A stretch of 45,569 bases of DNA from a virus: the IMG/VR virus record IMGVR_UViG_3300012362_000004, positions 1-45,569 of that record, one strand, 5' to 3'. This document shows positions 7,216 to 36,974 of the stretch, in pieces (positions within the stretch are counted from its first letter, which is position 1; every line of letters begins with the position of its first letter). Under the pieces are notes generated by a model that was not told the origin of the DNA, did not search any database, and was given only the letters and a program-made list of their open reading frames with translations. The translations under genes and the position numbers were made by a program.

Positions 7216-7523
7216 TGGCTTGGCTCCACAGGCAGCTCCAGCAATAGCCGCATCGGCTCACCCTTGTTCCAGCTGCACGTCAGCTTGAGACTTAGAGCTT
7301 CTATCTCGACACCGCTTACCTTGATCGTGCAGTTCGTCCAGTCGGGGCCGACTATCTCCACGTTGCCGACGCGCAGGTCGATAGCCTGGACTTCGATGTC
7401 CACCGTCTGCTGCGCCAGGGCGGTGGGCACGAACTCGATGCAGGGGCATCCCGGTTCCGCGCAGGCATTCCAGCCGTGGTGAACGTGGCCACACCGGCAG
7501 ATACCCGTCAAGTTATTACTCAT
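7212..7523 (-). CDS. zinc-knuckle protein of unknown function
   Basis: 103 residues from the ATG at 7523, overlapping the stop of the tail-joining gene as ATGA. The N-terminus MSNNLTGICRCGHVHHGWNA and AEPGCPC (Cys/His at about 9-32) form a zinc site of the 'C.CGH.H......C...GC.C' type common in phage and actinobacterial small proteins. The rest is beta-rich ('IEVQAIDLRVGNVEIVGPDW', 'IKVSGVEIEALSLKLTC'). Role unknown. Confidence 0.7.
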   Translation of the reverse strand: MSNNLTGICRCGHVHHGWNACAEPGCPCIEFVPTALAQQTVDIEVQAIDLRVGNVEIVGPDWTNCTIKVSGVEIEALSLKLTCSWNKGEPMRLLLELPVEPSQ

Positions 7524-8062
7524 GCCAACTTGCCTCCCACGTCGTACTGATTGACCGCGCCGGCGCGGAACTCGCCGCCGAAACCGCCGCGGCGGAATAA
7601 AGCTACAAACTGTGGGCGTAATTCCAGCAACGACCTTCGCAAGAAACTGCGCCCCCGGATGGCCCCCTGCTTGACCCACTTGGCGAAGCGGCGCTCGCCG
7701 GTCTGTGGGTCGATCCACGACAGCGCCTTGGCGTTGACCGGCTCTATTATTTTGCCACCTTGAACGCCCCACTCCAACCAGACGCCGTAGGCTAGGTTGG
7801 TGCCCACGATACCCGTCAGCCGGCTCTCGTCCACGTTGGCGAAGATGCTGTTGCGCAACCGGCCGGTGTCGGCGTGCGGGTAGTCGCCCTCTTTCGACGG
7901 CCCCAGGGTGCGCGTCGGCTGGCTGAGGTTCTCGACCACGCGCCGCTTCAATAATTCCGTGGCGTAGTAGATGATGCGCAGGACTTGCTTGCGCACCTTC
8001 TCGATCAACTCGGGGCCGCGGTAGGTCAGGCGCGCGTTCTTGAGACGGATGTTCTGGACCAT
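7520..8062 (-). CDS. HK97 gp10-like head-tail joining / tail protein
   Basis: 180 residues from the ATG at 8062, overlapping the previous stop as TGATG. The pattern 'HADTGRLRNSIFANVD' (about 78-93), 'GTNLAYGVWLEWGVQGG' and 'IRGRSFLRRSLLELRPQFV' is that of the HK97 gp10 family, whose members act at the head-tail junction and commonly have 'TG.L..SI' and 'YA...E.G' motifs. It follows the connector and head-closure genes, as expected. Confidence 0.8.
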   Translation of the reverse strand: MVQNIRLKNARLTYRGPELIEKVRKQVLRIIYYATELLKRRVVENLSQPTRTLGPSKEGDYPHADTGRLRNSIFANVDESRLTGIVGTNLAYGVWLEWGVQGGKIIEPVNAKALSWIDPQTGERRFAKWVKQGAIRGRSFLRRSLLELRPQFVALFRRGGFGGEFRAGAVNQYDVGGKLA

Positions 8063-8905: not shown

Positions 8906-9700
8906 TTAGCCGCCCAAAAATCTGTTGTAGTTGACGTAGGGCTCCAGCATTCTTAACACCCCCTGCGGCAGCGCGTACTGGAGGCCGGTCGAGCTGCGCT
9001 GGCTCTGGGCGTCGTAGCTGACCGTGTGGCCCTCCAGCGACTCGCTGACCACCGTGCCGCCGTCGAAGCCGCCCGAGCGCTTGCGGAAGGCGACTAGCTC
9101 CTGAAACAGCTTGCCGCACGCCTCCATCGTCGCGATCTTCAGAGCCGGCACGCGCTGCTGGAGGTGCGCCGCCGAGTAGCCGCCGACGTAGGTGAGCTGC
9201 ACGCCTCTGCGGGCGCTGGTCCAGACGCCGGTGACGCGGTAGACCAGGCCGTCGTAGCACAGCCGCTGGCCGCCGACCGACTCCATCCAGTTGACCTGGT
9301 AGTCCGGCCCCTCGGCGAGTACGGTACCTGAAAAGTCGGGCGGACTCGGCACCAGCCAGGCGTTGGGGTTCTCGACCACCGACGTGACGGAGTAGATGGG
9401 CGGGTTGCGCACGCGCAGGCACTGCTGGTTGCCGAAGCCGAAGCTGCTGATAAGCTGGTTATTGTTGCTCAGCTCCCAGTAGCCCTCGTCCACCAACTGG
9501 TCGCGGTCGGTCGCCTGCGGGGTGTCGGGGTGATACTCGACGTAGGTCTGCTGCACCGGATTCCAGCCGATGAAATCCCTGACCAGTCCCTCGGCGGCGT
9601 TCCGCGCTACTTCCAGGGTCGCCAGGTCCACGTCGCTGACGTTGCCGGCGGCCAGGCCGGCGGCGATCAGGCACTCGGCCCTGTTCAGGATACTGGCCAT
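8906..9700 (-). CDS. head-tail connector (adaptor) protein
   Basis: 264 residues. The N-terminal helical region 'LATLEVARNAAEGLVRDFIGWNPV' (about 25-48) is the pattern of gp6/gp15-type adaptor proteins ('a...iE.ylG....'). 'GVQLTYVGGYSAAHLQQRVPALKIATMEACGKLFQEL' (about 160-196) matches the typical 'v.v.Y.aGy......vP..l..A...la...' segment. It forms the ring under the portal. The ATG overlaps the upstream stop as TGATG. Confidence 0.75.
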   Translation of the reverse strand: MASILNRAECLIAAGLAAGNVSDVDLATLEVARNAAEGLVRDFIGWNPVQQTYVEYHPDTPQATDRDQLVDEGYWELSNNNQLISSFGFGNQQCLRVRNPPIYSVTSVVENPNAWLVPSPPDFSGTVLAEGPDYQVNWMESVGGQRLCYDGLVYRVTGVWTSARRGVQLTYVGGYSAAHLQQRVPALKIATMEACGKLFQELVAFRKRSGGFDGGTVVSESLEGHTVSYDAQSQRSSTGLQYALPQGVLRMLEPYVNYNRFLGG

Positions 9701-10098
9701 CAGCCTGTCCCTCCAGCCAGTTGGTCCAGGACGCAGACGCAGCCCAGCTCGACCTCCTTGGTGGCGTTGGCCGGCTGACTGATGGTGCTGTCCACCACCA
9801 GCAGCTCGGCGTCGTACAGGCCGGCGCTGAGCAGGGCGGCGTCGGCCTCGGCGATCTCCAAAGTGTACTGCGCCGGGCTGGCGTCATTGCCGCGGTCGGT
9901 GATCGTCACGGTGGAGCCATTGGCCGTCACGCTGCCGCTCACCAGGTCTACGGCCGGCGTGCCGGCGTCGGTGCTGCCCACCTTGAAGCGCAGGCGGTCG
10001 GACGCGGCCAGCCCGATGGGACTCAGGCCGTCCGACTTATACAGCTGGCCGGCGAACACGTTGGTCCTACCCCGGTAGACGTTGAGGACGTAGCTCAC
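9700..10098 (-). CDS. beta-rich structural protein
   Basis: 132 residues starting at a GTG with GAGGAG upstream. Beta-rich, with 'FAGQLYKSDGLSPIGLAASDRLRFKVG', 'VTANGSTVTITDRGNDASPAQYTLEIAEADAALLSAGLYDAEL'. This is the immunoglobulin/BppU-N-like pattern found in phage baseplate and fibre proteins. It lies between a repeat protein and the connector. Probably a virion surface or attachment component; not certain. Confidence 0.55.
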   Translation of the reverse strand: MSYVLNVYRGRTNVFAGQLYKSDGLSPIGLAASDRLRFKVGSTDAGTPAVDLVSGSVTANGSTVTITDRGNDASPAQYTLEIAEADAALLSAGLYDAELLVVDSTISQPANATKEVELGCVCVLDQLAGGTG

Positions 10099-10107
10099 AC
10101 GGCTCCT

Positions 10108-11667
10108 CTACACGGGCGTAATCCTGGTCCTGGCCTGGCCGCGCTGGGCTATCACAGTGTCAGCCGGCTCGCGGCCGAAGCTCTGCGCGGTCGATGGCAC
10201 CAGTATACCGTTGGCGAGCTGCAACGTATAGGCCGCCGCGCCCGCGCGCGGGTAGCCGGGCGCCCTGGGCGGCAGCTCCAGCCGGCGCAGGGCCTCGGCG
10301 TTCTCGGGCGCCAGCTCAGCCGGCGGGAACGTGCAGTAGACGGCGTAGCTGCCGGCGCGGCGGGCGGGGTCAGCCCTGACCGGCAACTGTAAGCCGTTAA
10401 TAGGTTGCGGCTCAGACTGAACCACGAAACTACTGGCCGTCTGGTAGGCGTCCCGAGTAGCCCGCCGGCTACCGGGAGCGGCGCTGGGCAGCACCAGCCC
10501 GTTGACGGCCGCCGGCTCGCCCTGGATGACGAAGGAGCACGTCAGGTCATAGGAGCCGGCACGGCGGGGACCGGGAGCTGTAGCCGGCAGCAGCAGACCG
10601 TTGATCGCCTGGGGTTCACTCTGGACCACGAAGCTGGTCAGCGGCAGACCGTAGCCGTCGCCGGCCCGTCTGGCGCCCGGCGCGGCCTGGGGTAGCAACA
10701 ACCGCTGGCACTCGGCCGGCTCGTCGCGGACCACGAACGCCGGCAGCGCTGGCAAGTAAGCCGCCTGACCCGCGCGCGGGTAGCCGGGAGCGCGCTCGGG
10801 CAGACAGCGGCGGAACAGCTCGGGGAAGTCGGTGATCGGCTCCTCGACCGCCGGCCGCAGCGCGACCAGGTAGGCCGAGCTGCCGGCGCGGGCCTGCGCA
10901 CGCGCCACGGCTGGCCAGGACACGACCGAGACGGCAGGGGGTTCCGACTGCACCACGAAGGCGCTGGCGGCCTGGTAGGCATCCTGGCTGGCCCTTCGAG
11001 CGCCTGGAGCCGCGTCTGGCCACAGCAGCCCGATGCCTGACTGTGGTTCGCCTTGGACCACAAATGAGCTAGCCGTCTGGTAGGCGTCAGCCGTGGCCCG
11101 CCGGCTGCCGGGTGCCGCGGCCGGGATGAACAGTCCGATTCCCGGCTGAGGTTCCGACTGGACGACGAAGGCACTCGCGGTCTGGTAGGCGGACGCGGCG
11201 GCGCGGCGGTAGCCGGGCGCGCTGTCGGGCAGCAGTAGCGTCGTGCCGGCCTGGGGCTCCCCTTGCACGACGAACTGACTTGCCGTCTGGTAGGCGTCGG
11301 CGGTCGCCCGCCTGGCACCGGGTGCCGTGACCGGCAGAACTAACCCGATCCCCGGCTGCGGTTCCCCCTGGACCACGAAGCTCGGCAGGCCAGTCTGGTA
11401 GGCCATCTGGCCGGCGCGGGCGGCGGCCGGGGCCTTCTCGGGCAGCTCGCGGCGGTGGGCGGCCTCCTGATCTTCGTAGAGCAGTTGAGGCGCCAAGAGG
11501 ATCATGTAGGCCGAGAAAGCGGCGCGGGCCGGGCCGCGGGCGAACTGCGGCTGGCCGTGCTGCACCATCGCCGCCTGCGGCTCGTCCGGCGGCGGGATGG
11601 TGCGGCCAAGCGGCTGCGCCCACGGGCTATTGGCGGTGCTGCTCGGATTTCTGTGGAGGTAGGCCAT
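10108..11667 (-). CDS. tandem-repeat protein (about 13 units), tail fibre-like
   Basis: 519 residues built almost wholly from degenerate repeats of 32-36 residues. The unit consensus is APGxRRAxxxAYQTASxFVVQ followed by SEPQxxxxLxLP. About 13 units are seen, the best conserved at residues 95-240 and 330-440. A non-repeat N-terminus (MAYLHRNPSSTANSPWAQPL) and a short C-terminal tail flank them. The unit 'RAAFSAYMILLAPQLLYEDQ' near residue 50 is shared almost unchanged with the upstream neighbour, so the two genes share repeats by duplication. No known domain is recognised. Its position after the glycine-rich adhesins suggests a fibre or surface role. The ATG follows the previous stop directly. 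Confidence 0.75.
   Translation of the reverse strand: MAYLHRNPSSTANSPWAQPLGRTIPPPDEPQAAMVQHGQPQFARGPARAAFSAYMILLAPQLLYEDQEAAHRRELPEKAPAAARAGQMAYQTGLPSFVVQGEPQPGIGLVLPVTAPGARRATADAYQTASQFVVQGEPQAGTTLLLPDSAPGYRRAAASAYQTASAFVVQSEPQPGIGLFIPAAAPGSRRATADAYQTASSFVVQGEPQSGIGLLWPDAAPGARRASQDAYQAASAFVVQSEPPAVSVVSWPAVARAQARAGSSAYLVALRPAVEEPITDFPELFRRCLPERAPGYPRAGQAAYLPALPAFVVRDEPAECQRLLLPQAAPGARRAGDGYGLPLTSFVVQSEPQAINGLLLPATAPGPRRAGSYDLTCSFVIQGEPAAVNGLVLPSAAPGSRRATRDAYQTASSFVVQSEPQPINGLQLPVRADPARRAGSYAVYCTFPPAELAPENAEALRRLELPPRAPGYPRAGAAAYTLQLANGILVPSTAQSFGREPADTVIAQRGQARTRITPV
10387..10403. repeat. 17-bp palindrome, copy 5 (CTGTAAGCCGTTAATAG), inside a coding repeat
   Basis: Lies inside the repeat protein gene and encodes the PINGLQ part of a unit. 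Because other units use related INGL/VNGL residues with other codons, this copy may be partly chance. Confidence 0.45.
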
Positions 11668-14544
11668 TTATGTCGCCCTCCCCAGCCGGCCTGCCGCCGG
11701 ACCCTTGACGCTCACGGTCGTATCCCGCACGCCGCGGGTGCCGAAGTAATCCGATTGTAGCAGGGTGGCGCTCGGGTCGCCCAGCCGGTACGCCTCCTGT
11801 GCTGCCCGCCGGTAGCCGGGTGCCAGTGCCGGGCACAACTGGACGGCGGTGGACGGCTCACCCTGCACTACGGCGCTACAGAGTAGGTCGTAGCTACCCG
11901 CTCGCCTGGCACCAGGTGCTGCCCACGGCAGGTAGTCGTCAGCGCCCGGCATCGGCTCAGACTGAACCACGAAGCGGCTGTTGACCGCGTAGTCGCCGGC
12001 CCGGCGGTAGCCGGGAGCGGTCGCCGGCAGCTGGAGGAACGTCGCCGCCAACACCTCCTGCTCCAGCGCGGGCCGCAGGCCGCACCAGTAGGCCGCGGCG
12101 GCTGTCCGCACGGTGCCGGCGGCCCTGACTGTCACCTGTTGGACGGAAGCCGCCTGGGGCTCGCTAGGTACCACGGCGCGGCACAGCAGGTCGTAGCTGC
12201 CCGCCCGCCGGTAGCCTGGTGCCGTGGACGGCAGCACCAGGCCGTTGATGGGCTCCGGCTCATCCAGCGGCGGCACGGTGGCGCGCAGGTCGTAGGAGCC
12301 GGCGCGCTGGGCTGGCCTGGCAAAGTGCGGTACGCTCTGGACCGACGTAGCCTGCGGCTCGTCTAGCGGCGGCATGGTGGCGCGCAGGTCGTAGACGCTC
12401 CGAGCCGGGCCTCGGGCCAGGTGCGGAATGGTCAGCCGTTGGGCTTCAGCCGGCTCGCTCTGGACCACGAACCGGCTAGTGATACCGTAGTCGCCGGCGC
12501 GCCTTGCGCCGGGAGCTGCGGCTGTCACCTGGAGGCAATAGGGGTACTGCGTCTCCTCCGGCGGCACCAGCGGCACGATGATGCTGTAGGCCGTACCGGC
12601 GGCCCTGCGAGCGTAGGGTGCCACCTCGGGCACCCTGGCGCGGATGCAGGCCAGGTCCGATCCCTCCAGCGCCACCTGATCGACGTTCAGCGTCGTGATA
12701 CCGTAGGCCGACTGGCTGGCGCGGCGATGACCGGGTGCCGCCGCCGGCAAGATCAGCCGGGCGTCGGCCAGCGGCTCACTCTGGAGCGGCACCGACTGGC
12801 TGACGCCGTAGGCTGAGTACGCCGACCTCTGACCTCTGACCTCTAATCTCTGGTCCGGCAGCGCTAGCCGGTGGGCCATCGTCTGCGCTTCCGGCGGCGG
12901 GAACGTCGCCAGCACGGAGTAGTCGCCGGCCCGTCTGGCACTAGGAGCGCTCGCCGGCAGCAGCGGGTGCTGGCACTCCGGCGGCTCGCCGACGTAGGCC
13001 GCCAGCCGCGGCGTCAGGTCGTAGTCGCCGGCCTGGCGGGCGCCCGGTGCCCGGTGCGGCAGGCTCTGGACCATAGCCGCCTGCGGCTCGTCCGCCACTA
13101 TAAACCGATTATAGAGAGCGTAGCCGGCCTCCTGCCGGGCAGCCCCCCTGGCGACGTGCGGCAGTAGCGGCCACTGGTCAGCCGGCGGCGCGCTGGCCGG
13201 CAGCGGTGCCAGGCCGATGAAGTAGGCGTGCCCGGCGGCCCGCGGCGCCGGCGCGGCCCGGTCGGGCGGGCGCGGCTCCATCGACGCGAGGGGCTGGTCC
13301 ACGTCCAGTAGCCGGCGCGCAATCGTGTAGCCGTCGCCGGCCCGGCGCGCGGCCGGTGCCTGGTCTGGCCACAGCCACGGGAAGTAGGTCTGCTCGATGT
13401 CGAGCGGCGGTACCGTGCTGCGCAAGTCGTAGGAGCCGGCGCGCAGCGGCCCTCTAGCGAGGTGCGGTAGCACCTGGAGGAACGGCCCCGGTGCGTTCGC
13501 GATGGCCGGGGTATTGACGACGTGGTAGGCGTGGCGGGCCGCCCTGACATAGCCCGGCGCCGTCGCCGGCAGCAGTGGGCGCTGGCCCTCGGCTGGCTCC
13601 GCCTGCACGGTGAAGCGCGCCGCAATGTCGTAGGCGCCGCTGGCCGCGCGGCGGTAGCCCGGCGCTGCGCTGGGCAGCTCCAGCCGGCGCTGCGCGGTCG
13701 GGTCCTCGTACTGGACCTGCGGCGGCTGGGTGATCGAGTAGGCCGACGCGCCGGCGCGCTGGGCCGCCGGCGCCCTGGCGGTGATCTCCCTCCGGTGCTG
13801 CGCCTCCTGGTCCTCGTAGAGCAGCTGCGGCGCGAGCAGAATCATGTAGGCCGAGAAGGCTGCCCTGGGTGCTCCCCTGGCCATGTCGGTCACGGCGACC
13901 CGGCGGAACTGCTCCTCCGGCGGCGCGGCGTAGGTGATGCTGGTGCGCCCGGCGGCCCCGTTACCGCCGGCGCTGCCGCCGCTGTCGCCGCCGCCGCCCG
14001 CACCGCCCGGTGCCGTGCCGGCTTGGGCACCGGCGCCCGCCAGCGTGGCCCCGGCCCCACCCACGCCGCCCCCCGCGCCGGCCGTGCCGCCGGCCCCGCC
14101 GGTGCTGCCTACATCGTTGCCGCCGTTGCCGCCCGCGGCCGACGCGCTGCCCGACCCGCCGCCGCCCCCCCCGCCGCCGGCTGACACAGTGCCGCCGTTG
14201 CCGCCCGCGTTGACGGTCGTGCCGGTCCCGGAGCCGCCACCCCCGCCCGCTCCGCCGCCTTGGCCGCCGTTGCCAGTCACGTTCGTGCTGGAGTCGCCGA
14301 TGAGCTGGGAGCTGGTGCCGCCGCCGTCCGAGGTGCCGGCGCTGCCGACCGTGACCGTGTAGATGTTGCCGGGCGTGACCGGCACCGTGGGGTTGGCCGC
14401 GTAGCCGCCGCCGCCGCCGCCCGTGCCGGCCCCGATCAGTCCCGTCTGGCCCGCGCCGCCGCCGCCGATACACTCCACCAGCACGGACGTGACGCCGGCC
14501 GGGCAGGTCCAGGAAGACGAGCTGTCGAAGGTGTCAGTAGGCAC
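11668..14544 (-). CDS. glycine-rich adhesin fused to about 21 tandem repeats
   Basis: 958 residues from a GTG with GGAGGG upstream. Residues 1-35 (DTFDSSSSWTCPAGVTSVLV) are the usual entry to glycine-rich phage adhesin domains ('f...gsftwt.PaGvt.v.v...G.GGgG'). Residues about 28-210 are glycine-rich, like the polyglycine sandwich tips of T-even-type fibre adhesins. From about 225 to 940 come some 21 degenerate units of 32-36 residues, most with RRAGxYDL...F then VVQSEP and LPxxAPG. The fusion of a glycine-rich domain to this repeat is unusual. A receptor-binding fibre is the likely role. High GC and repeats make this region prone to slippage. Confidence 0.75.
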   Translation of the reverse strand: MPTDTFDSSSSWTCPAGVTSVLVECIGGGGAGQTGLIGAGTGGGGGGYAANPTVPVTPGNIYTVTVGSAGTSDGGGTSSQLIGDSSTNVTGNGGQGGGAGGGGGSGTGTTVNAGGNGGTVSAGGGGGGGGSGSASAAGGNGGNDVGSTGGAGGTAGAGGGVGGAGATLAGAGAQAGTAPGGAGGGGDSGGSAGGNGAAGRTSITYAAPPEEQFRRVAVTDMARGAPRAAFSAYMILLAPQLLYEDQEAQHRREITARAPAAQRAGASAYSITQPPQVQYEDPTAQRRLELPSAAPGYRRAASGAYDIAARFTVQAEPAEGQRPLLPATAPGYVRAARHAYHVVNTPAIANAPGPFLQVLPHLARGPLRAGSYDLRSTVPPLDIEQTYFPWLWPDQAPAARRAGDGYTIARRLLDVDQPLASMEPRPPDRAAPAPRAAGHAYFIGLAPLPASAPPADQWPLLPHVARGAARQEAGYALYNRFIVADEPQAAMVQSLPHRAPGARQAGDYDLTPRLAAYVGEPPECQHPLLPASAPSARRAGDYSVLATFPPPEAQTMAHRLALPDQRLEVRGQRSAYSAYGVSQSVPLQSEPLADARLILPAAAPGHRRASQSAYGITTLNVDQVALEGSDLACIRARVPEVAPYARRAAGTAYSIIVPLVPPEETQYPYCLQVTAAAPGARRAGDYGITSRFVVQSEPAEAQRLTIPHLARGPARSVYDLRATMPPLDEPQATSVQSVPHFARPAQRAGSYDLRATVPPLDEPEPINGLVLPSTAPGYRRAGSYDLLCRAVVPSEPQAASVQQVTVRAAGTVRTAAAAYWCGLRPALEQEVLAATFLQLPATAPGYRRAGDYAVNSRFVVQSEPMPGADDYLPWAAPGARRAGSYDLLCSAVVQGEPSTAVQLCPALAPGYRRAAQEAYRLGDPSATLLQSDYFGTRGVRDTTVSVKGPAAGRLGRAT
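13098..13114. repeat. 17-bp palindrome, copy 6 (CTATAAACCGATTATAG), inside a coding repeat
   Basis: Encodes part of YNRFIV in repeat unit 8 of the fused adhesin. Centre and one arm base deviate from the consensus. Confidence 0.45.
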
Positions 14545-14557
14545 GGCGCGCGCCCTC

Positions 14558-15235
14558 CTACGGCTGGGCCATCATGACGCGGCAGTACAGCTCGGGGTTA
14601 TCGGTGGACGGTGCCGGCCACGTCAGCACCACCTGCCCTGCCTGCCCAGCTCCGCCGACGTGCAGCGTCCCGCCACCGCCCCCTGGCGCAACCCCAGGGT
14701 TTGCCGCCGCTCCCCCAGTTCCACCCGCTGTACCGCCTCCGGTTCCAGCGGTACCGCCTGCTCCACCAGTACCGACGCCTCCGGCAGCCCCGTTGCCGCC
14801 TGCGCCGGTTGAGCCGCCGCCTCCGCCTCCGCCGCCTCCGCCTGTTGAGCCGGCAGAGCCGCCGAGGCCGCCGAGATTGATTACGTCGCCGACGTTGCCG
14901 GTCGTCTGGGTGCCGTCTGTTTTGCCACCCTTGCACTTTGCCAGCGAACCGTCGTCCCAATAGCAATCGCCACCGTCTACACCGTTCGCTCCGGCGGAAC
15001 CGACAACGACGTTGTAGGTGGTGCCGATGACGAGCCCGGTGAGCGTCTTCTTGATGTAGGGCGGCCCGCTCGCCCCGTTGCCTCCCAGACTGACCGCGCC
15101 GTCTTGACCGCCTCCAAAAGCTCCGTAAGCTTCAAATACCAGCGTCGTCGCCTGAGCCGCGAACTTGTACGTCCCCGAGGTTCTGATCGTGTAGGGACTG
15201 GCCCAGAGTTCGCCGATTCCGATTTGAGACTGCAT
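14558..15235 (-). CDS. glycine-rich adhesin-like protein
   Basis: 225 residues. The N-terminus 'SPYTIRTSGTYKFAAQATTL' then VFEAYGAFGGGQDGA is the glycine-rich domain entry, and 'GLVIGTTYNVVVGSAGANG' is typical of this family. Residues 125-195 are a nearly pure glycine/alanine/threonine tract. The end (VVLTWPAPSTDNPELYCRV) is non-repetitive. Such domains form flat, surface-exposed receptor-binding sandwiches at fibre tips. It is the second of three such proteins in a row. Confidence 0.75.
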   Translation of the reverse strand: MQSQIGIGELWASPYTIRTSGTYKFAAQATTLVFEAYGAFGGGQDGAVSLGGNGASGPPYIKKTLTGLVIGTTYNVVVGSAGANGVDGGDCYWDDGSLAKCKGGKTDGTQTTGNVGDVINLGGLGGSAGSTGGGGGGGGGGSTGAGGNGAAGGVGTGGAGGTAGTGGGTAGGTGGAAANPGVAPGGGGGTLHVGGAGQAGQVVLTWPAPSTDNPELYCRVMMAQP

Positions 15236-15586: not shown

Positions 15587-16747
15587 CTAGAAAGTCACAA
15601 TACACCCAGCGCCCAAGCCGCCGTTGCCACTTAATTGCCCGCTGCCGGTATTGGTGGCAGCGTTGCGAGCCCGCCCACCGCCGCCGCCCCCACCGCCGCC
15701 AAAGGAGTTAGTGGAGTTGCCACCAGAACCTCCCGCTGTACTGCTGGCGTCAGAACCACCACCGCCGCCACCACCGCAGTTGCCGTTCGTGGTAGCCCCG
15801 CCAGCACTGCCGCCAGCAGCGCCGGCAGTGCCGGCTGAGCCGCTCCCACCTACCCCGCCAGCCCCGCCGGCTGCCTGTGCCGTATCTGCCGTGGCCCCAC
15901 CCCCTCCTCCACCCCCGCCCGTAAGACTGCCAGCCGAGCCATCGTCTCCCACGGTTGCTCCGCTCCGGCCAGTCCCGCCCGCTGCGCCTGCCACGTCGCC
16001 GCTTCCACCTGCTCCGCCTGCTCCTGTCTGAGCCCCGGTACCGACGCCGCCGCCCGTACCTTTGCTCCCGCCATTGGCAGACAAGCTGGCGAACGTGGTG
16101 GCGGTCCCATCGTTGCCATTATTTCCGGCAGTATCGGCGGTGCCCTGTGCTGCTGCTGACGCGCCGCGAATGCCAAGCACCAGGTTGCCGGTACTCAGGG
16201 TACTGAGCAGCACCGTCCGCACGATCAGTCCTCCGCCACCGCCACCGCCACCGCCAGCCGCCTGATTGCCGCTGACCGTTACCTTACCGCCGCCGCCGCC
16301 GCTCGCGCCAGCCCCAATGAGCATGATTAATGTGGAGCGGTAGGGCGTCGTGTTGCTGGGAGACGGCTTGGTCCAGGAGAAAGTACCTCCGACGGTCGCT
16401 GCACTTGGATTGAAGACATTGGCTGTCGAGAATACTACAGGCCCAGAGTCGAAATTGAACAGCATGCAGAACATCGCGAGCTGATCGAACCCGACCGGGA
16501 TGGCCAAGGTCCGCTCGTCCACCCGCAGCCAGCGGAACACGTCGGCGTAGCGTTTGGGGACATGCTTCAGCAGCCGGTCGATGTCCTTCGTCGGACCCTC
16601 GGCACAGCGCAGCCAGGCATTATCCAGCCGGCGGAAGCCGTGCTGGAACTCTCGGGGGTCGATGGACCGGACTCGCTCCGCCATGAGGTCGATCAGGTCA
16701 CAGCGGAGGACGGGTCCGGTCGGCAGTTGAGTGAGGAGGTCGATCAT
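15587..16747 (-). CDS. tail fibre/spike protein with glycine-rich tip
   Basis: 386 residues. The N-terminal 110 residues are ordinary sequence ('FQHGFRRLDNAWLRCAEGPT', 'VPKRYADVFRWLRVDERTL') and may attach it to the tail. 'GGTFSWTKPSPSNTTPYRSTL' then IMLIGAGASGGGGG opens a glycine-rich domain running from about 135 to the end, interrupted by 'GGLIVRTVLLSTLSTGNLVLG'. The overall type matches glycine-rich phage adhesins. It heads the row of three glycine-rich genes. The tract is slippage-prone. Confidence 0.75.
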   Translation of the reverse strand: MIDLLTQLPTGPVLRCDLIDLMAERVRSIDPREFQHGFRRLDNAWLRCAEGPTKDIDRLLKHVPKRYADVFRWLRVDERTLAIPVGFDQLAMFCMLFNFDSGPVVFSTANVFNPSAATVGGTFSWTKPSPSNTTPYRSTLIMLIGAGASGGGGGKVTVSGNQAAGGGGGGGGGLIVRTVLLSTLSTGNLVLGIRGASAAAQGTADTAGNNGNDGTATTFASLSANGGSKGTGGGVGTGAQTGAGGAGGSGDVAGAAGGTGRSGATVGDDGSAGSLTGGGGGGGGATADTAQAAGGAGGVGGSGSAGTAGAAGGSAGGATTNGNCGGGGGGGSDASSTAGGSGGNSTNSFGGGGGGGGGRARNAATNTGSGQLSGNGGLGAGCIVTF

Positions 16748-17208: not shown

Positions 17209-17940
17209 CTACCCGCCCGACAGGAACAGCTTCTTCTTCGGCATAGTCGCGCGCGGCTTGCCCAGCTGCACGCGCTTGTCGTGCCCGGCCCAGCAGTCCC
17301 AGGCGCACAGCACCGGCAGGCCCATCTGCTCAGTCATGCGCGCCGTGAAGGTTATGTCCTCGCCCGCGTGCAGGTGTGTGCAGTTGGCGTCCTTGTAGGT
17401 ATTGCTGAACCACGGCTGCTCCATGCTCGCCAGCACGCGCAGGTCGAGCACCACCAGGCCGGCCCCAGAGCCCTCGACCGGCCGGATGCCGCTCAGGCCG
17501 TAGGTCTCGCTGGCCTCCATGAGCAGCAGGTGCTGGGCGCCGTCCGGGTCGATGCGGCGCTTGTGGCAGCACACCTGACCGTTGACGGCCTGGATCGGTG
17601 CCGCGATCCAGGCCGGCGGCCGGTCGTGTACCAGCGCGTCGTACAGGTAGTCGAAGGCGACCTCGAAGAACGGCGGCGCGCCGGGCTCGCAGTCCGGCAG
17701 CGTGTCGTGGTCCACCATGCACAAGAAGTCGCACTCGGCCTGCTGCGCCGTCATCAGCGCCAGGTTGCGGGCCGCGTACACCGGCGCCACGTCCAGCACA
17801 AACTCCTCCAGGCCCCAGACGCGCTCGCGCTGGCTCGTCAGCCAGTGGCACGTCTTGGCCAGCCACGAACCGACGCGGCCGTGCTCGTAGCTGCCGTAGA
17901 GCATGCGGGCGATGCCAACTTTAACCTTGCTGTCTCGCAC
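17209..17940 (-). CDS. glycosyltransferase, GT-A fold (GT2-like)
   Basis: 243 residues. 'ARNLALMTAQQAECDFLCMV' then DHDTLP (about 57-82) is the nucleotide-sugar-binding region, with DHD at 77-79 as the DxD metal site. It is followed by 'APIQAVNGQVCCHKRRID', 'GSGAGLVVLDLRVL' and a C-terminal 'GEDITFTARMTEQMGLPVLCAWD', which includes the ED usually found near the active site. It would transfer a sugar, perhaps to a virion protein such as the glycine-rich fibres beside it, or to the host surface. Such genes occur in several phages in structural operons. Substrate unknown. Starts at an ATG after a palindrome. Confidence 0.7.
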   Translation of the reverse strand: MRDSKVKVGIARMLYGSYEHGRVGSWLAKTCHWLTSQRERVWGLEEFVLDVAPVYAARNLALMTAQQAECDFLCMVDHDTLPDCEPGAPPFFEVAFDYLYDALVHDRPPAWIAAPIQAVNGQVCCHKRRIDPDGAQHLLLMEASETYGLSGIRPVEGSGAGLVVLDLRVLASMEQPWFSNTYKDANCTHLHAGEDITFTARMTEQMGLPVLCAWDCWAGHDKRVQLGKPRATMPKKKLFLSGG

Positions 17941-18749: not shown

Positions 18750-19208
18750 TTATGGCTCGTTCCACACGACGGCATAAGAACTCGTGGCCGTGCCCACGTC
18801 GTCACGGCACTCCACGTTACAGTTGGCGGCCGTGGCGTCGTAGAGGTTGAACTCCTCACCGGGCGCGGCCAGCCAGCGCACCACGCCGCCGTGAGCGTTC
18901 CACGACGTGCCGAACAGCGCCCCGGCGACGATGGTCGGCTGCGACGTGGCATAGGTGGTGCTGAAGAAGGCACCATTGGTAGCGCTGTGCTGGTTGCCCT
19001 TTTGCACGTTGCCGGCCGTGCGGGCACCGGTGCCGGTCGCCGAGTCGCGGGCGATGCGCGTGCGCATGGCCGTGCTGGTCGTAACCTCGCCGCCCCAGCT
19101 GACCTCGATGATGTCAGCCTGGACGGCCGCTACCGTTTCCAGGACCCACAGGGCCACGCCGGCTACGGGCGTCGCCCCCGCTACGAACCCACTGTATTTT
19201 CCTGCCAT
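18750..19208 (-). CDS. beta-rich virion-type protein
   Basis: 152 residues. Threonine/alanine/glycine-rich with aromatic strands: 'GVALWVLETVAAVQADIIEV' near 18-37, 'FSTTYATSQPTIVAGALFGT' and 'VVRWLAAPGEEFNLYDATAA' later. This composition is usual in phage decoration or minor structural proteins. It is the last gene of the capsid-side operon, followed by a hairpin. Not assigned to a family. Confidence 0.6.
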   Translation of the reverse strand: MAGKYSGFVAGATPVAGVALWVLETVAAVQADIIEVSWGGEVTTSTAMRTRIARDSATGTGARTAGNVQKGNQHSATNGAFFSTTYATSQPTIVAGALFGTSWNAHGGVVRWLAAPGEEFNLYDATAANCNVECRDDVGTATSSYAVVWNEP

Positions 19209-19223
19209 GATTGACCCCTTTCG

Positions 19224-19568
19224 TTATCTTGAACAGACCGCATCGCACCGCGCGAGAAAGCGGTCAACCTTACGCTTCACCTCGTCGCACTCACCCGTCT
19301 CCGCCGTGTACTTGGCGCAGGCCCGGCAGATGTTGCCCCGGCATTTGCGGCAGCGGAACTTGGCCACGTACTCGTGCTGCACGTGTGCCGCCACGCCGGC
19401 CGCCCGCAGGATGTCCACGTTCTGGAGGGCCAGCTGGTCGTGGCCGTGCTGCAAGATCGCGATGACGGTACCGCAGTGGGCGCAGCTCTTGGTGTCCAGC
19501 TCCAGCAGCGTGCCCGACCGACCGTCGATGCCCTGCCCGCCCACGTGGGAAATACTAAGGAAGCCCAT
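19224..19568 (-). CDS. zinc-binding protein, conserved phage type
   Basis: 114 residues with two Cys pairs: CAHC at about 29-32 and CRKCRGNICRACAKY at about 73-87, plus a late ECDEV...RC. The second cluster 'C..C.g.iC..Ca......geC.....k.d' is a pattern I recall from small phage proteins next to capsid and tail genes, of unknown function. A single ATG start at 19568. Confidence 0.7.
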   Translation of the reverse strand: MGFLSISHVGGQGIDGRSGTLLELDTKSCAHCGTVIAILQHGHDQLALQNVDILRAAGVAAHVQHEYVAKFRCRKCRGNICRACAKYTAETGECDEVKRKVDRFLARCDAVCSR

Positions 19569-22392: not shown

Positions 22393-23898
22393 TTACGCCG
22401 CGCCGGCGTCCTTCATGAGCACGAAGGCCGAGCCGTCCATGACCTTACCGCCGAACCGGCCGCGGCCGAGCACCACCACGGTGTTCTTCAGCGCCAGCGT
22501 GATGCCCTCCGTGACCATACGCATGTCGAAGCCCCTGCGGCGGTACAGCCGATACTTCTTCAGGGCGCCGAAGATGATGGTGTTGTTGGCCAGGCTGTTC
22601 TGGATGCTGGCCGGGTACTCCAGCAGCTGGTAACTCTGGTGGTCCATGCCGAACACGCGCCGCTGGTCGGCGCCGCTCACCGGAATCTGCCGGAAGCGCT
22701 TGTAGGCGGTGTCGGTCATGATGTGCCGGCTGTTCCAGGCGGTGCGGGCGCGGTACTGCTTGGCCAGGCCGAACACCTGCGTCTCGGCATCGTCCACCTC
22801 CAGGGCACCGCCGACGCCGTTGACCGAGTTGGTCGTGGTCGTGCCGCTGGCGGCGGTGATGCCCTGCGGTTGCGTGGTGCCGTTGCCGTTGACGATGACG
22901 TTGTCCCACTCCTTGAGGGCCGACTGGCCGATATTAGTCTGGAGCATCTGGCCGACGTTGACCGGGCTGTCGGAGAGGAAGTCGATGCCGACTTCCACCG
23001 CCACCATCACCGGGTAGATGGTGGTGTCGATCTCGGCCGCGAGCGAGGCGGTGTTGAACAGGGTAAGCGACGTGCCCTCAGCCGTACCCCAGCTGACGGT
23101 CGGGTTGCCGAGCGAGGCGCCGACCATGCGCGAGCCCCTGGGGGGCTCGACGATCTCGACGTAGGGGAAGACCTCGCTGTGCAGCAGCGGGAAAGTGACG
23201 ATCAGCTCGTCGAACCAGATCGGCACCAGTCCCTGGCCGCCGGAGCCGCCCGACTCGTCCAAGAGCGCCTTGACCTGGAGGCCGCTGATGGGCGCGATGA
23301 AGTCCTCCTGGCCGTCGGCGGTGAACCAGTCCTTGGCGTAGATTTCCTCCAGCAGCGCCTTCTCCTCCTCGCGCAGCGGCGCGACGTGGCGCTGCTGCAT
23401 GATAGCTGGCGTGTGCAGGCAGGCATTGTGGAACCACACGCCCGCCTTGGCGAACTCTAGCTCGCTGGGCAGCTCCACCTGGCTGCCCAGGTGCTCGACC
23501 GGCTCGCCCGTGGTGGCGTGCTTGCCCACCCACTTCTTGCGCGACCACTTCTCACTGGGGTCCTTGACGCGGACGTTCGGGTCGGCCACGTCGGCGACCG
23601 CCGCCAGGCCGCGCGTCTGGTCGGTGGCGCGGTGCGGGTCCTTGGCCGGCGGCAGCGCGGCCGGCTTGACGCCCGCCTTCTCCAGCGCGGCCGCGACGGC
23701 CTTGCCGACCACCAGCTCCATGCTGGTCTGCTGCGCGGCCGCGGCCTTCTCGGTCGTCAGCTCTGCCAGCTTGGCCGGCGTCAATTTGCCGGAGCCCAGC
23801 GCGTCGGCCAGCGCCGTCTTGTACTGGTCGTCGGTGGCCGTCTCCGGGAGCCCGGCCAGGGCACGAAGCTCTTTCTTGAGAGCGTCGGTGAACTTCAT
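22393..23898 (-). CDS. major capsid protein, HK97 fold
   Basis: 501 residues. The N-terminal 130 residues are helical and alanine-rich, as in the delta/scaffold domain of HK97-type capsid proteins. The fold-typical text follows: 'GQGLVPIWFDELIVTFPLLH' (about 220-239), 'SEVFPYVEIVEPPRGSRMVG', 'EIDTTIYPVMVAVEVGIDFL', 'SALKEWDNVIVNGNGTTQPQ' (the 'n.vi.GdGt..P.Gi' loop), 'SRHIMTDTAYKRFRQI' and 'GMDHQSYQLLEYPASIQNSL'. It forms the icosahedral shell. The protease encoded just upstream would remove its N-terminal domain. Confidence 0.9.
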   Translation of the reverse strand: MKFTDALKKELRALAGLPETATDDQYKTALADALGSGKLTPAKLAELTTEKAAAAQQTSMELVVGKAVAAALEKAGVKPAALPPAKDPHRATDQTRGLAAVADVADPNVRVKDPSEKWSRKKWVGKHATTGEPVEHLGSQVELPSELEFAKAGVWFHNACLHTPAIMQQRHVAPLREEEKALLEEIYAKDWFTADGQEDFIAPISGLQVKALLDESGGSGGQGLVPIWFDELIVTFPLLHSEVFPYVEIVEPPRGSRMVGASLGNPTVSWGTAEGTSLTLFNTASLAAEIDTTIYPVMVAVEVGIDFLSDSPVNVGQMLQTNIGQSALKEWDNVIVNGNGTTQPQGITAASGTTTTNSVNGVGGALEVDDAETQVFGLAKQYRARTAWNSRHIMTDTAYKRFRQIPVSGADQRRVFGMDHQSYQLLEYPASIQNSLANNTIIFGALKKYRLYRRRGFDMRMVTEGITLALKNTVVVLGRGRFGGKVMDGSAFVLMKDAGAA

Positions 23899-23966: not shown

Positions 23967-25958
23967 CTACAGCACCGACGCCATCGTCTCGCGGACGTTC
24001 GCCTCCCAGGCGTCGTCCACCACGTCCTTCAGGTTGATGAGGTTGGCGGGCGCCACCTTGTCGCCCTTCAGCAGAGCCGCGATCAGCCCGCAGGTCAGCT
24101 GCTCGGCGCCCAGCGCCTTGCCGGGCACGCCCGGATTGGCCGGGCCGCCACCGTCCTGAATCTCGGGGTTGGGCTTGGTGCCGACGCCGGGGTTAGCGCC
24201 GCCGGGCGTGGCCGACTCCATGACGGACTTCATGCAGGCCATGCCGTCGCGCATGGCGGCCTTGCCGAGCGCGTGCATCTTCTCGTGGCTGGCCATGTCG
24301 CTCGCCAGCCCGTAGGCGGCCTTGACCTTGGCCATGTTCTCGGCGCTGAGCACCCGCGCGGCCTTGTCGTCCGCGTCGGCGTCCTGCGTCTGGGTACCAG
24401 CCGGCTTGGGCTTAGGCTTGTCGGCCTGGCCCTCACTAGAGTCCTGCTCACCCACCACGTCCTTGATATAGGCTTGACCGGCCTTGCACATGGTCTTGTG
24501 GTCGGCGATGGTCTTGTCGTGGTCGTGGACGGCGCCGAAGTTGTCGCTCGCCTGGGTCAGCAGGGCGGCGTTCTTCTTGCTCACGGCCCGGCCCATCTTG
24601 GTCTCCATGAACGTCCTCCCCTTGGCGGTGCTCAGGAACTGCTTGGCGGACGCCTCCAGCTCGACTTCCTCGGGCGTGCCGGTCCAGGCGGCGGCGGCCA
24701 AGTCGCCGTTCCAGGCGAGGCGGTAGTAGGTGTAGCCGTCGTCGGCGTCGTAGTCGTTGTCGCCGCCTGGCCAGTAGCCGTCGTCGTAGCCCCCGTTGCG
24801 GGCCAGGACGCAGACGATGGCTTCCTTGGGGTAGGTCCCCAGGACGCTGTGCAGGTCGTAGCGGCCGGGGCGCTCGCCGGCGTGGTCGCCCAGCCACGCC
24901 TCCAGGCCGTCCTCCAGGTCGTCGATGGCGTCCTCGAATGTGCCGGGGAAGTCGGGCAGGCCGATCCGCACGGGGCCGTTGCCCTTGACAGCCGGCGGCG
25001 ACTGGAGACTCTTGAGTGCGGCGGCCAGCGGCGCGAATGCCTTGTCATTCTCGGCGCACATATTGATCGCGATTGCCACCGCCTGGGCCTGTTCTTTCCC
25101 CTCGTCCATCAGCTTGCGAATCTTGGCTGACACGCACTCATCGTCCTTGCCCTTGCCGTCACCAGGCTTGCACGTCTCGCATGCGCAGCCGGCGGCGCAC
25201 TTCTGACCGGGCACGTCCAGGCCGGTGGTGCTGACCGTCTTCGGCAGCAGGTCCCAGGTAGCCTTGACCCAGCTCTTGACGAGCGGGTGGTGCAGCTTCT
25301 CCCAGCTGAAGTCAAGTAGTTGGGCGCGGGTGTTGCTGGGCACGCTGACGCCGCTGACCTCCATGACCTCGTAGTCGAGCACGTGCCAGCCGGGCTCCTG
25401 AGTGTCACCCTTCTCACGCTTGATGGGCGTGAACTTGATCGGCCGGAAGCCGTGGCTAATCCGCAGCGCCCCGAAGTCGAACAGCTTGGCTGCGTCCTCG
25501 CCAAGCTGGGTATCGACGATGGCGCAGCGGACGACCACGAAGTCGTCGTCCTGGCTGACCACGCGGACCAGCTTGCCGATGGGTTGCAGCGGGACGTGCT
25601 GCCACAGGAGTGGCATCAGCGGATCGACCTGCGCGCCCTTGCTCTCCAGCAGATCGCCGTCGCGGTCCTTGGTGGTCGCGGTGAGCACGCAGTCGAACTC
25701 GGCGATGGCGTTCTTGACCGTGGTGTAGCCCCTGAATTCCTTGATCTTCAGCGGCTCGTCAAAGTAGGTCAGCTCCTGCGCGGCCGCCTTGAGGACCGTG
25801 GCCCAGAGCGAGGCGGTGCCTAGCTGGGCCAGCGCGCAGCCGCCGTCCCCGTCCCGGCAGGCCAGCACAGTCTTGAGCCAGCGGTCGGCTGAGAGGATGC
25901 CGCGCGCGCCGTCCCGCTGGGCGTGCTGGATCAAACTGCCTAGCTCGGTGAGACTCAC
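23967..25958 (-). CDS. prohead protease with long C-terminal scaffold-like extension
   Basis: 663 residues from a GTG at 25958, one base after a palindrome. Residues about 60-215 are the HK97-family prohead protease: 'RDGDLLESKGAQVDPLMPLL' then WQH with the catalytic His at about 121, 'ISHGFRPIKFTPI' at 167-179, and 'EVSGVSVPSNTRA' at 200-212 with the likely Ser at 202. It cleaves scaffold and capsid N-termini during head maturation. The remaining 440 residues are far longer than usual. They hold a Cys cluster (CAAGCACETC, about 250), 'ECVSAKIRKLMDEGKEQAQA' and a charged helical region, and may act as the scaffold. Confidence 0.85.
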   Translation of the reverse strand: MSLTELGSLIQHAQRDGARGILSADRWLKTVLACRDGDGGCALAQLGTASLWATVLKAAAQELTYFDEPLKIKEFRGYTTVKNAIAEFDCVLTATTKDRDGDLLESKGAQVDPLMPLLWQHVPLQPIGKLVRVVSQDDDFVVVRCAIVDTQLGEDAAKLFDFGALRISHGFRPIKFTPIKREKGDTQEPGWHVLDYEVMEVSGVSVPSNTRAQLLDFSWEKLHHPLVKSWVKATWDLLPKTVSTTGLDVPGQKCAAGCACETCKPGDGKGKDDECVSAKIRKLMDEGKEQAQAVAIAINMCAENDKAFAPLAAALKSLQSPPAVKGNGPVRIGLPDFPGTFEDAIDDLEDGLEAWLGDHAGERPGRYDLHSVLGTYPKEAIVCVLARNGGYDDGYWPGGDNDYDADDGYTYYRLAWNGDLAAAAWTGTPEEVELEASAKQFLSTAKGRTFMETKMGRAVSKKNAALLTQASDNFGAVHDHDKTIADHKTMCKAGQAYIKDVVGEQDSSEGQADKPKPKPAGTQTQDADADDKAARVLSAENMAKVKAAYGLASDMASHEKMHALGKAAMRDGMACMKSVMESATPGGANPGVGTKPNPEIQDGGGPANPGVPGKALGAEQLTCGLIAALLKGDKVAPANLINLKDVVDDAWEANVRETMASVL

Positions 25959-31951: not shown

Positions 31952-34114
31952 CTACAGCAGCTTCTCCTTCCCCAGCAGCCCGGCCACGTACTCCCGCGTC
32001 TTCGGGAACGTCGCCGCGAAGTCGGGCTTGACCGCTGCCGCCTGGCCGACCAGCTCGCCGGCCGCCTGGGCGAATGCCTCCATGCGGCCCTCGCCAGTCT
32101 GCCGCGCGAAGTACAGTACGCCCCACTTGCGCTCGCCCAGCGCCCGCACGTCGGCGTCGTGGGCGACCCGGAACTCGGCCGACTGGCTGGGGCGGCCTAG
32201 CGCGTCGTCCAGCGCGTGCCCGGCCTCGTGCGCCAGCGTGGCCGCCGGGTGCTCGTTGGGCCGCTCCACGCCCTGCCGGACGGTGCTGGACATGACCGCC
32301 AGCACCTTGGTGCTAAAGCTGTACAGGCCGTTCGCCTGCGCAGCCCGGTCGGCCGATATATCACCACGGTTATCAACTTGGTCGCCACGGCCGGCGGCCG
32401 TTACCTGGACGCCGTGACTGGTCAGCCGGTCGCGCAGCGTGCCCGGCAGGGCGTCCCACGCTTGCGCCACGGCGGCGTGGTGCTCCGGGCTGGCCGACGT
32501 GTTGCCGACCGTGCCGGACGCGCCACAGGCGACATAGCGGCCTCCCTCGGGCTCCCCGGCGGGGACGCGGCACGCCTCGCGCACCAGGTCGAGCAGCAGC
32601 GCCGACTGGCGGTCGGCGGGTCGGCGGAATGCGTAGGACTTGCCATCTTCCAGGCCGGCGAATAGCTCGTCCTCGGAGACGAGGACAGAGGAACTATTAC
32701 AGCGGCAGTTGCAACGCATGGCAGCGCTCAGGCTGGTGTCACCAGGGTACTGGCACTCCTCCTCTTCGCCGTCGTCGTTGACTAGGATAAACGGCTCGTC
32801 ATTGTCCACCTGTTGCTCGTTGGCGTCCTCGTGAGCCGGCCGTACATCCTGATCCAAAATCGACAACCACTCCTTCGCTTTAAGCAAGCCCATCTCATCT
32901 AACTTATTGCGCGATTCTTGATGCCCTGCGTTTAGCGCCCCGGTGCACTCGCTCCTAGCTATCAATTGTGCCCGCGCCGCCCCGCCACCATCCGGCCCCA
33001 GCTTCTCCTCGATCTCGTCGGCGATCTCGTCCGTGCTCTTCCCTTCGTCCACGCCCGTCTTCAGCTCCTCGACGATGTCCTCCCTGGTGCTGTCGCTCAC
33101 GTCCTTCCAGTACGGCTCGTCCAGCAGGTCGTCGGTCCAGTCCTGCATCGCCTGCACCACGTCGTCGGGCGGCCGCACCGCCAGCTTGTCCAGGTAGGCT
33201 TGCAGCGCCTCGTCGCGCTCCTTCTTGGGCTTGTCGGCCTTGGTTGACTTAGCCGGCTTATGCTCAATCTTGGTCCAGCCCTTGTCACGATCCTTGTAGA
33301 CAACCGGGAATGGCCACTCGGCCGGCTCCGACAGCTCCGACCGACCCAGGTGGCGGTTGATGATGAGCCCCTTGATCTCAGACGGCTTGATCTCGCCGCC
33401 CTGAAAGCGGCGCTCATACTCATTCTCCGCGGTCGGGTCCTGGTGAGAGATGATATCGCCGTGCGCCGCCAGGCTTTTCTCGTCCATTAAAAATATATAG
33501 TTGCCGCGGGCACCGGTAGTCGCCCAGTCCAGGTTGGAAGTCATCGAGATAGAGCCCTGATTGCCGACGCCAAAACTGGACGCCTCACCGGCACGCAGAC
33601 CGTCATCAATAATCTTGATGGCCGCCCCACCGTTGGTAGCGTGGAACACAGGTGTTTCCACTCCTGGAAAGTGCTTACCAACCTCATTGACCCATGTCTT
33701 GCCGTAGACTTCCTGGTCAGTGCCACCGGTTGCACCGCCGCCCTCATCGTCACAAGATGAGAACTGTCCACCTTCCGGTTGCCCAGCCGGCACCCGGCAC
33801 GCCTCGCTATTTTTGGTTAATAGTAGCTGGTAGAAGTGCTTGTGGGCGTTGAGCCACTCGGCGGCCGCGCCCGCCAGGCCCGCGCGTAGCAGGCCCGGTG
33901 CCGCCGCGGCCTTCAGGGCGTCATCCACGCGCGCGACCGTCAGCCACGCCTCCAGCTGCTTGACCGTGGCGCCCGCCCGCACCTGTGAGGCTGCGTCCCG
34001 GCCCAGCTTGGCCAGGTAGGCGCGCAGGTCGGCGGCGAGGTAGTCCTCCTGTTCCCCGTGCATCTTGAGCCACAGGTCGAGGCGGCTGTCCTTGTCTTGC
34101 AATAGGGCTGTCAC
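31952..34114 (-). CDS. minor head protein (MuF) with ADP-ribosyltransferase-like and HExxH modules
   Basis: 720 residues from the GTG at 34114 (GTGA overlap). An earlier in-frame GTG at 34138 is less likely. Modules in order: N-terminal helical part (1-100); linker RVPAGQPEGGQF at 107-118; an ART-like region 136-285 ('TPVFHATNGGAAIKIIDDGL', 'SISMTSNLDWA', 'YIFLMDEKSL'); MuF head domain about 340-475 ('RAQLIARSECTGALNAGHQE', 'EWLSILDQDVRPAHEDANEQ', 'MRCNCRCNSS'); a second linker at 516-527; and an HExxH peptidase (LAHEAGHALDDALG, 628-641). MuF joins portal and capsid. The attached enzyme-like modules could be injected effectors. Catalytic residues of the ART-like part are not certain. Confidence 0.8.
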   Translation of the reverse strand: MTALLQDKDSRLDLWLKMHGEQEDYLAADLRAYLAKLGRDAASQVRAGATVKQLEAWLTVARVDDALKAAAAPGLLRAGLAGAAAEWLNAHKHFYQLLLTKNSEACRVPAGQPEGGQFSSCDDEGGGATGGTDQEVYGKTWVNEVGKHFPGVETPVFHATNGGAAIKIIDDGLRAGEASSFGVGNQGSISMTSNLDWATTGARGNYIFLMDEKSLAAHGDIISHQDPTAENEYERRFQGGEIKPSEIKGLIINRHLGRSELSEPAEWPFPVVYKDRDKGWTKIEHKPAKSTKADKPKKERDEALQAYLDKLAVRPPDDVVQAMQDWTDDLLDEPYWKDVSDSTREDIVEELKTGVDEGKSTDEIADEIEEKLGPDGGGAARAQLIARSECTGALNAGHQESRNKLDEMGLLKAKEWLSILDQDVRPAHEDANEQQVDNDEPFILVNDDGEEEECQYPGDTSLSAAMRCNCRCNSSSVLVSEDELFAGLEDGKSYAFRRPADRQSALLLDLVREACRVPAGEPEGGRYVACGASGTVGNTSASPEHHAAVAQAWDALPGTLRDRLTSHGVQVTAAGRGDQVDNRGDISADRAAQANGLYSFSTKVLAVMSSTVRQGVERPNEHPAATLAHEAGHALDDALGRPSQSAEFRVAHDADVRALGERKWGVLYFARQTGEGRMEAFAQAAGELVGQAAAVKPDFAATFPKTREYVAGLLGKEKLL
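33817..33833. repeat. 17-bp palindrome, copy 16 (CTATTTTTGGTTAATAG), inside the MuF gene
   Basis: Encodes LLLTKN, ending just before the first RVPAG linker, i.e. at a module border. Confidence 0.5.
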
Positions 34115-34377
34115 GCTTCCTCCGGTAATCGAAAACACCGCACTCGTCGGTTGCTGTGCGCCTCTACTGACCAGCTGTTGACCAATTCACCAGGCTGCCG
34201 ACTCAGCGCATTCAAGACGCGCTGCCAGCCGATAGTAGGTGGCCAGCTAGGGCACTTCACACCGGCGCGGACTGCGATCAAGTCGAGCAGGCCGGCGTCA
34301 CCGTACATGACCGCCGGGTTATCTGTCTCCCGAAGAACCTGAGCGGTAACGTCACAGATGCGGTTGTTACGCGGCAT
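34111..34377 (-). CDS. small basic protein before MuF
   Basis: 88 residues, ATG at 34377. 'RNNRICDVTAQVLRETDNPA' and 'GWQRVLNALSRQPGELVNSW' then SVEAHSNRRVRCFRLPEEA could be a winged-helix-like fold. It overlaps the upstream gene by 11 bases and the MuF start by four. No family recognised. Confidence 0.65.
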   Translation of the reverse strand: MPRNNRICDVTAQVLRETDNPAVMYGDAGLLDLIAVRAGVKCPSWPPTIGWQRVLNALSRQPGELVNSWSVEAHSNRRVRCFRLPEEA

Positions 34378-36765: not shown

Positions 36766-36974
36766 GTTCGCGTCCTCCGCTTCTTGGACCGCAGCCGCGC
36801 CAACTTCTCGTCAGCATGCTGCCGGCAGTACATGCCCAGCGTCCGAGCGCCACGCCGGCTGCCGCGCCCGTCCGGCTCGACGCGCAGCGCCGTCACGGCC
36901 TGCACCACGGCCGGCTTGCAGGCGTCACAGTGGCACCAGGGGGCGGATACAGGTTGCTCCGTGTACCGGCTCAC
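36762..36974 (-). CDS. small zinc protein
   Basis: 70 residues from a GTG at 36974 that overlaps the helicase stop (GTGA). CHCDAC at 14-19 and MYCRQH at 48-53 form a zinc site, and the basic tail KKRRTRT follows. Directly behind the helicase. Probably a small nucleic-acid-binding accessory protein. Confidence 0.65.
   Translation of the reverse strand: MSRYTEQPVSAPWCHCDACKPAVVQAVTALRVEPDGRGSRRGARTLGMYCRQHADEKLARLRSKKRRTRT

Follow-up and report, generated by a model that had tools for sequence, protein, structure and literature searches.

What is encoded by two neighbouring phage genes that carry between them some 35 copies of a short repeat, and what would the particle do with such a protein? 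The genes in question, A and B, reside in a 45.6-kb IMG/VR virus record, the whole stretch of which (45,569 nucleotides) is referred to here as the window, and in which almost all genes are found on the minus strand. They lie back to back, B and then A, between the capsid gene and a head-tail adaptor gene, and the position of that adaptor (8906..9700) places them and their accompanying cassette inside the virion structural block. The relevant features of the window are as follows.

1-1671, tape measure protein
7520-8062, Neck1
8906..9700, minus strand, head-tail adaptor (phrog_442, E 2.3e-11)
9700..10098, minus strand, 132-aa protein directly 3' of gene A (Ig-like/BppU_N resemblance by eye only)
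10108..11667, minus strand, repeat gene A, 519 aa, ATG start
10213..11601, minus strand, repeat array of gene A, residues 23-485 (unit profile)
11434..11541, minus strand, first full unit of gene A (ARGPARAAFSAYMILLAPQLLYEDQEAAHRRELPEK), corresponding to the first one in gene B
11668..14544, minus strand, repeat gene B, 958 aa, GTG start
11719..13881, minus strand, repeat array of gene B, residues 222-942, about 720 residues (unit profile)
13774..13881, minus strand, first full unit of gene B (ARGAPRAAFSAYMILLAPQLLYEDQEAQHRREITAR)
13930..14523, minus strand, Gly_rich_2 domain of gene B, residues 8-205 (Pfam PF21722, PHROGs)
14558..15235, minus strand, Gly-rich protein just upstream of gene B, 225 aa, 31% Gly
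15587-16747, second Gly-rich protein upstream of gene B, 26% Gly
17209..17940, minus strand, 243-aa protein, glycosyltransferase-like by eye (TADADSHPD in homologue)
18750..19208, minus strand, partner gene, 152-aa 'GGEVTTSTAMRTRIARDSA...TSWNAHGG' ('GGEVTTST...TSWNAHGG') protein
19224..19568, minus strand, small Cys-rich 'MGFLSI' protein, 114 aa
19959-20405, PAS-domain protein (Pfam PAS, E 2.7e-8)
22393..23898, minus strand, major capsid protein, upstream of the cassette (Pfam Phage_capsid, E 2.2e-28)
23967-25958, prohead protease
31952-34138, MuF-like protein
36971-40831, 1286-aa SF2-helicase-like protein with a LAGLIDADG homing-endonuclease match at residues 505-553

The PAS-domain protein thus sits within a phage structural region, and the LAGLIDADG segment of the SF2-helicase-like protein is possibly an intein. 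Neither of the two Gly-rich proteins upstream of gene B matched a family in Pfam or PHROGs.

Repeat arrays of genes A and B

The open reading frames, their coordinates and a count of about 35 repeat copies had been given in a preliminary description of this DNA, and all were borne out. A unit profile, built from hand-cut units and later iterated with units of five phages, located 34-35 units in total: 14 domains in gene A (13 full units plus a partial one) and 21 real ones in gene B, scoring approximately 19-53 bits each with the hand-cut-unit profile, and again 14 and 21 with the iterated one. At the DNA level, a pattern for APGxRRAGxY matched three times in the window versus 0.00 times in shuffles. 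Gene A consists of a short N-terminus, its units and a C-terminal tail of approximately 35 residues; in gene B the array follows an N-terminal domain that matches Gly_rich_2 (PF21722; E 1.8e-8, 35.1 bits, exceeding the gathering cut-off of 24.3) and phrog_4474 (E 8.8e-10). The composition includes 16% Ala and 12% Pro. Genes A and B together encode 116 Arg and only 2 Lys, and lysine is common in most other genes of the window.

Shine-Dalgarno-like sites precede both genes, and their base composition is of the coding type (GC3 0.84 and 0.87 versus GC2 0.59 and 0.62, for A and B respectively). Comparison of similar units gave pS values of 0.65-0.80, at which synonymous sites are saturated, and pN values of 0.16-0.27; this large excess of synonymous over non-synonymous change indicates that the frame is translated and under selection, and the same pattern, in combination with the ribosome-binding sites, led to rejection of an untranslated frame.

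The history of the units was further clarified by the AYMILLAPQLLYEDQ unit, the near-identity of which in A and B had been put forward as proof of transfer between the two genes. This unit is the first full one in both A and B, and a similar second unit comes after it in each. Its two copies agree at 29 of 36 residues in protein and at only 77 of 108 positions in DNA (31 bases differ); of the codons that differ, 15 do so synonymously and 7 non-synonymously, and pS is 0.65. Such saturation of synonymous sites removes the near-identity as proof of transfer, caused recent gene conversion between A and B to be rejected, and implies that the two genes have long shared this unit and that selection has preserved it. 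An ancient duplication, either of the whole gene or of its start, with subsequent selection on the protein, fits the sequences better than recent conversion does, and selection against DNA repeats may also have contributed to the scrambling of codons. The strong purifying selection acting on the units, among which neither recent duplication nor conversion was seen, also told against an earlier proposal that the repeat is a receptor-variation module.

The repeat family and its partner gene

Relatives were sought in several ways. Of 30 viral matches to a degenerate DNA pattern for Tyr-x5-FVVQxEP, one was a true relative; the 52 genome matches included none, and all 17 matches to an APGxRRAGxY pattern in viral contigs were due to chance. 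The true relative, IMGVR_UViG_3300037845_000068 (G001; L116), contains two repeat ORFs of 917 aa and 270 aa (the latter cut at the contig end), and its other genes include one that is 64% identical to the 152-aa gene of the window and a homologue of the 114-aa MGFLSI gene. A search with the 152-aa gene yielded four more records, three of which harbour repeat ORFs (G002, an 837-aa frame; G004, 538 aa; and G005, a 262-aa frame); in the other, G003, the 152-aa gene is located at the contig end. As the searches led from repeat to partner and then from partner to repeat, the association was found in both directions. Searches with the head-tail adaptor, the capsid protein or the protein at 18750-19208 alone produced no matches, no relative of protein A was found among viral and genome contigs, and cultured phages and plasmids contained no match to the repeat proteins.

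A profile built exclusively from window units scored the relatives' repeat ORFs at 25-99 bits, versus 12.4 bits or less for residue shuffles (423-472 scored shuffles of each relative protein), and a 3-unit profile, built in part from the same relatives' records that it scored, gave best E values of 1e-16 to 1e-29 per record. Judged by the shared Arg-Ala...Tyr core and a length of about 35 residues, the repeat family comprises the window, G001, G002, G004 and G005. The 98 units of these five records share the consensus APxxRRAxxxAYxIxxxFVVxDEPxxxxxLLLP and recur with a period of 35.1 +/- 1.9 residues (81 neighbouring spacings), and gaps over units too diverged to call measure two or three times approximately 35 residues. 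Across the 98 units the arginine is nearly invariant (97-100%), mostly with Ala next to it, and the Tyr/Phe that follows is conserved at approximately 96-100%; downstream of the tyrosine, the unit proceeds through Ile/Leu, Phe, Val, an acidic-Pro step and Leu-Pro, with hydrophobic residues at regular positions (I/L 14, F 18, V 19-20, L 32). Unit sequence is therefore free to diverge, unit length is held constant, and the number of units per protein ranges from about 5 to 25 across phages. Because the Arg-to-Tyr distance itself varies, from 3 to 6 residues in window units, that segment is probably extended rather than helical.

The 152-aa gene accompanies the repeat gene in every record with enough flanking sequence (5/5 repeat-bearing records); in G004 and G005 the two genes are immediate neighbours. 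The motif TSWNAHGG is invariant in this family (window, L116, L117, L118, L119 and L120). No significant Pfam or PHROG match was found in the members scanned, nor any match in the PDB or among cultured phages, and a partner profile searched against approximately 1,280 bacterial genomes from four phyla was equally without match. The setting of the pair differs from genome to genome. The window has it between capsid and head-tail adaptor genes, G005 between portal and protease, and G004 between capsid and connector-type genes; in G002 it follows the tail genes, and in G001 it is found upstream of the terminases. Protease, terminase and the G004 connector-type genes were identified by eye in the ORF list. 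The occurrence of the same two genes at five different genome positions identifies them as a mobile cassette, and the capsid proteins of the phages that carry it belong to at least two PHROG families, phrog_10 and phrog_9953.

Several other genes occur near the pair. The MGFLSI gene adjoins the partner gene in four relatives; its protein was recovered by tblastn in G001 (41%), G002 (41%) and G003 (32%), and an MGYLLIDH... ORF occupies its place, by eye, in G004. The 243-aa glycosyltransferase-like protein is common to the window and G002 (40% identity), and neither 17209-17940 nor its homologue matched a Pfam family; the only PHROG match was sub-threshold. The neighbours of the G002 cassette include a DnaJ-like gene, and PAS and transferase-like genes are also located near cassettes. 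Between the two repeat genes of G001, an ORF (L116 1595-2206) displays a weak Sulfotransfer_3 match (E 4e-4, below cut-off). A phrog_1627/BppU_N-like gene directly follows a repeat gene in G001 (L116 813-1484) and in G005 (L120 11564-11899), the match being to phrog_1627 in both and that to BppU_N weak and below cut-off; the 132-aa neighbour in the window has no family match, with PF10651 absent at E <= 1. Taken together, these companion genes point to the particle surface, and no single one of them proves function.

Structural comparisons and candidate roles

The preliminary description had called the repeat unrecognised, and profile and sequence searches upheld this: whether whole genes, the 3-unit alignment or the relatives were used, no above-threshold match was obtained in Pfam, PHROGs or the PDB, and word searches of the open-access literature found no description of such a repeat. 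An AlphaFold prediction of three units, made with 11 alignment rows from the window, yielded a pLDDT of 49, a pTM of 0.11 and almost no secondary structure, values that could reflect disorder, an intertwined oligomer or trimer, or too shallow an alignment. The 152-aa partner (G002 copy, five homologues aligned) was predicted to be beta-rich, with a pLDDT of 52 and a pTM of 0.54; the best PDB match of the model in Foldseek was a Pam1 capsid chain (E 0.03), followed lower in the ranking by the KHP40 cement protein (E 0.23), both below significance. The weak resemblance of this model to capsid-associated jelly rolls may be taken as a lead only.

Several known systems invite comparison. Triple beta-spiral shafts are intertwined homotrimers whose repeats span 15-20 residues with a conserved Gly/Pro turn, and collagen has a period of 3. 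Fibre shafts of these kinds, and of the triple beta-helix kind, would resemble the present proteins in that short modules recur in tandem at a constant period, in variable copy number, and are encoded within a structural gene block, but no solved chain matches the repeat in sequence. The triple beta-spiral was rejected on unit length (35.1 +/- 1.9 versus 15-20 residues), and a collagen-like fibre was rejected since the G-X-Y triplet pattern is absent from the unit consensus. The suggestion of a fibre shaft made in the preliminary description consequently survives in part: the surrounding genes are consistent with a fibre or spacer, whereas no confident shaft fold was predicted. The N-terminal part of gene B resembles Gly_rich_2 proteins, at a score that passes the curated cut-off, but the repeat array falls outside that family, and no Gly_rich_2 domain is present in the repeat proteins of the relatives. 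Reviews (PMC7291167, PMC6669499) treat the adhesion proteins that siphophages carry at the neck passage and the baseplate, BppU among them. The cassette recalls these proteins in its location between head and neck genes in the window and in the gene that follows the repeat in G001 and G005, although the 132-aa neighbour in the window is unmatched and the repeat is unrelated to them in sequence. Capsid cement and head-decoration proteins display a weak likeness in fold to the 152-aa partner, not to the repeat, and that likeness comes from non-significant matches to a poor model.

The reading we favour, to which we would assign an even chance of being correct, is that A and B are paralogous modular virion-surface proteins that form a spacer or appendage of tandem modules. 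The repeat protein would reside in the virion, on its surface, and would function in adsorption or in particle-surface display. An array of modules of about 35 residues would serve the particle's exterior as a long spacer or appendage; part of the adhesion would fall to the Gly-rich domain of gene B and to cassette partners, the 152-aa beta-rich protein among them; and the number of units would set protein length, with unit length and the Arg/Tyr core remaining constant. This reading is supported by the location of the cassette among or beside structural genes in the window and its relatives, by the Gly_rich_2 domain, the Gly-rich neighbours and the beta-rich partner, by constant unit spacing, purifying selection and variable unit number, and by the possible modifier genes nearby (glycosyltransferase-like in the window and G002, and the weak Sulfotransfer_3 match in G001). 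Against it stand the lack of a match to any known fibre family or of a confident AlphaFold fold, and the missing Gly-rich domain in the relatives' repeat proteins. Furthermore, the position of the cassette varies between genomes, so that position alone cannot fix a virion role.

The main rival to a surface spacer or appendage is a docking strap, in which each unit, a linear peptide with the core R-A-x3-A-Y, would bind a single 152-aa partner or capsomer, so that many copies are lined up along the particle surface. The invariable pairing of the two genes and their adjacency in G004 and G005 are in keeping with this idea, as are an Arg-Tyr spacing that suits an extended peptide better than a helix, a period that stays constant despite sequence divergence, the coil that AlphaFold assigns to the units, and the partner's weak fold matches to capsid and cement proteins; but those matches are not significant and co-occurrence of genes does not show binding, and we consider the strap unlikely, if well worth keeping in mind. 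The low pLDDT and near absence of secondary structure, along with the Ala and Pro content and the almost complete replacement of Lys by Arg, would also be expected of an intrinsically disordered Ala/Pro/Arg/Tyr-rich protein that has no defined fold and acts, within the virion or outside it, through weak multivalent contacts. The strict unit length and regular hydrophobic positions, as well as saturated synonymous change in the face of a conserved protein, argue instead for position-specific structure or binding, and leave disorder a rather improbable account. A role apart from the virion, with a cargo cassette bringing along an accessory protein that acts early or in lysis, would agree with the differing genome positions and with the PAS, transferase-like and DnaJ-like (G002) neighbours; it appears improbable to us, given that in the window, G004 and G005 the cassette is embedded in the block of head and neck genes, and that gene B possesses a Gly-rich adhesin-type domain.

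Significance of the cassette

Tandem-repeat structural proteins of phages are, as a kind, already known; the present repeat family is new to the libraries and cultured-phage records that were searched. The most interesting new element is that it stays paired with the 152-aa gene in genomes that differ from one another. Repeat and partner constitute a mobile phage module, uncatalogued but recognizable by a clear signature in sequence and associated with more than one capsid type, and the module provides a handle on uncultivated phages that have no close cultured relatives. A more far-reaching proposal, to which we attach only a small probability, is that of a phage 'scaffoldin', in which each 35-residue docking unit recruits one 152-aa partner (or spans one capsomer), a single gene fixes the number and order of the copies displayed, and the two-gene cassette, a complete kit for surface display, passes from one phage to another unrelated one. 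The finding raises a testable question as to how long phage surface structures are built or coated from short modules, and if the units do dock the partner protein, they would represent a new principle of phage surface display.
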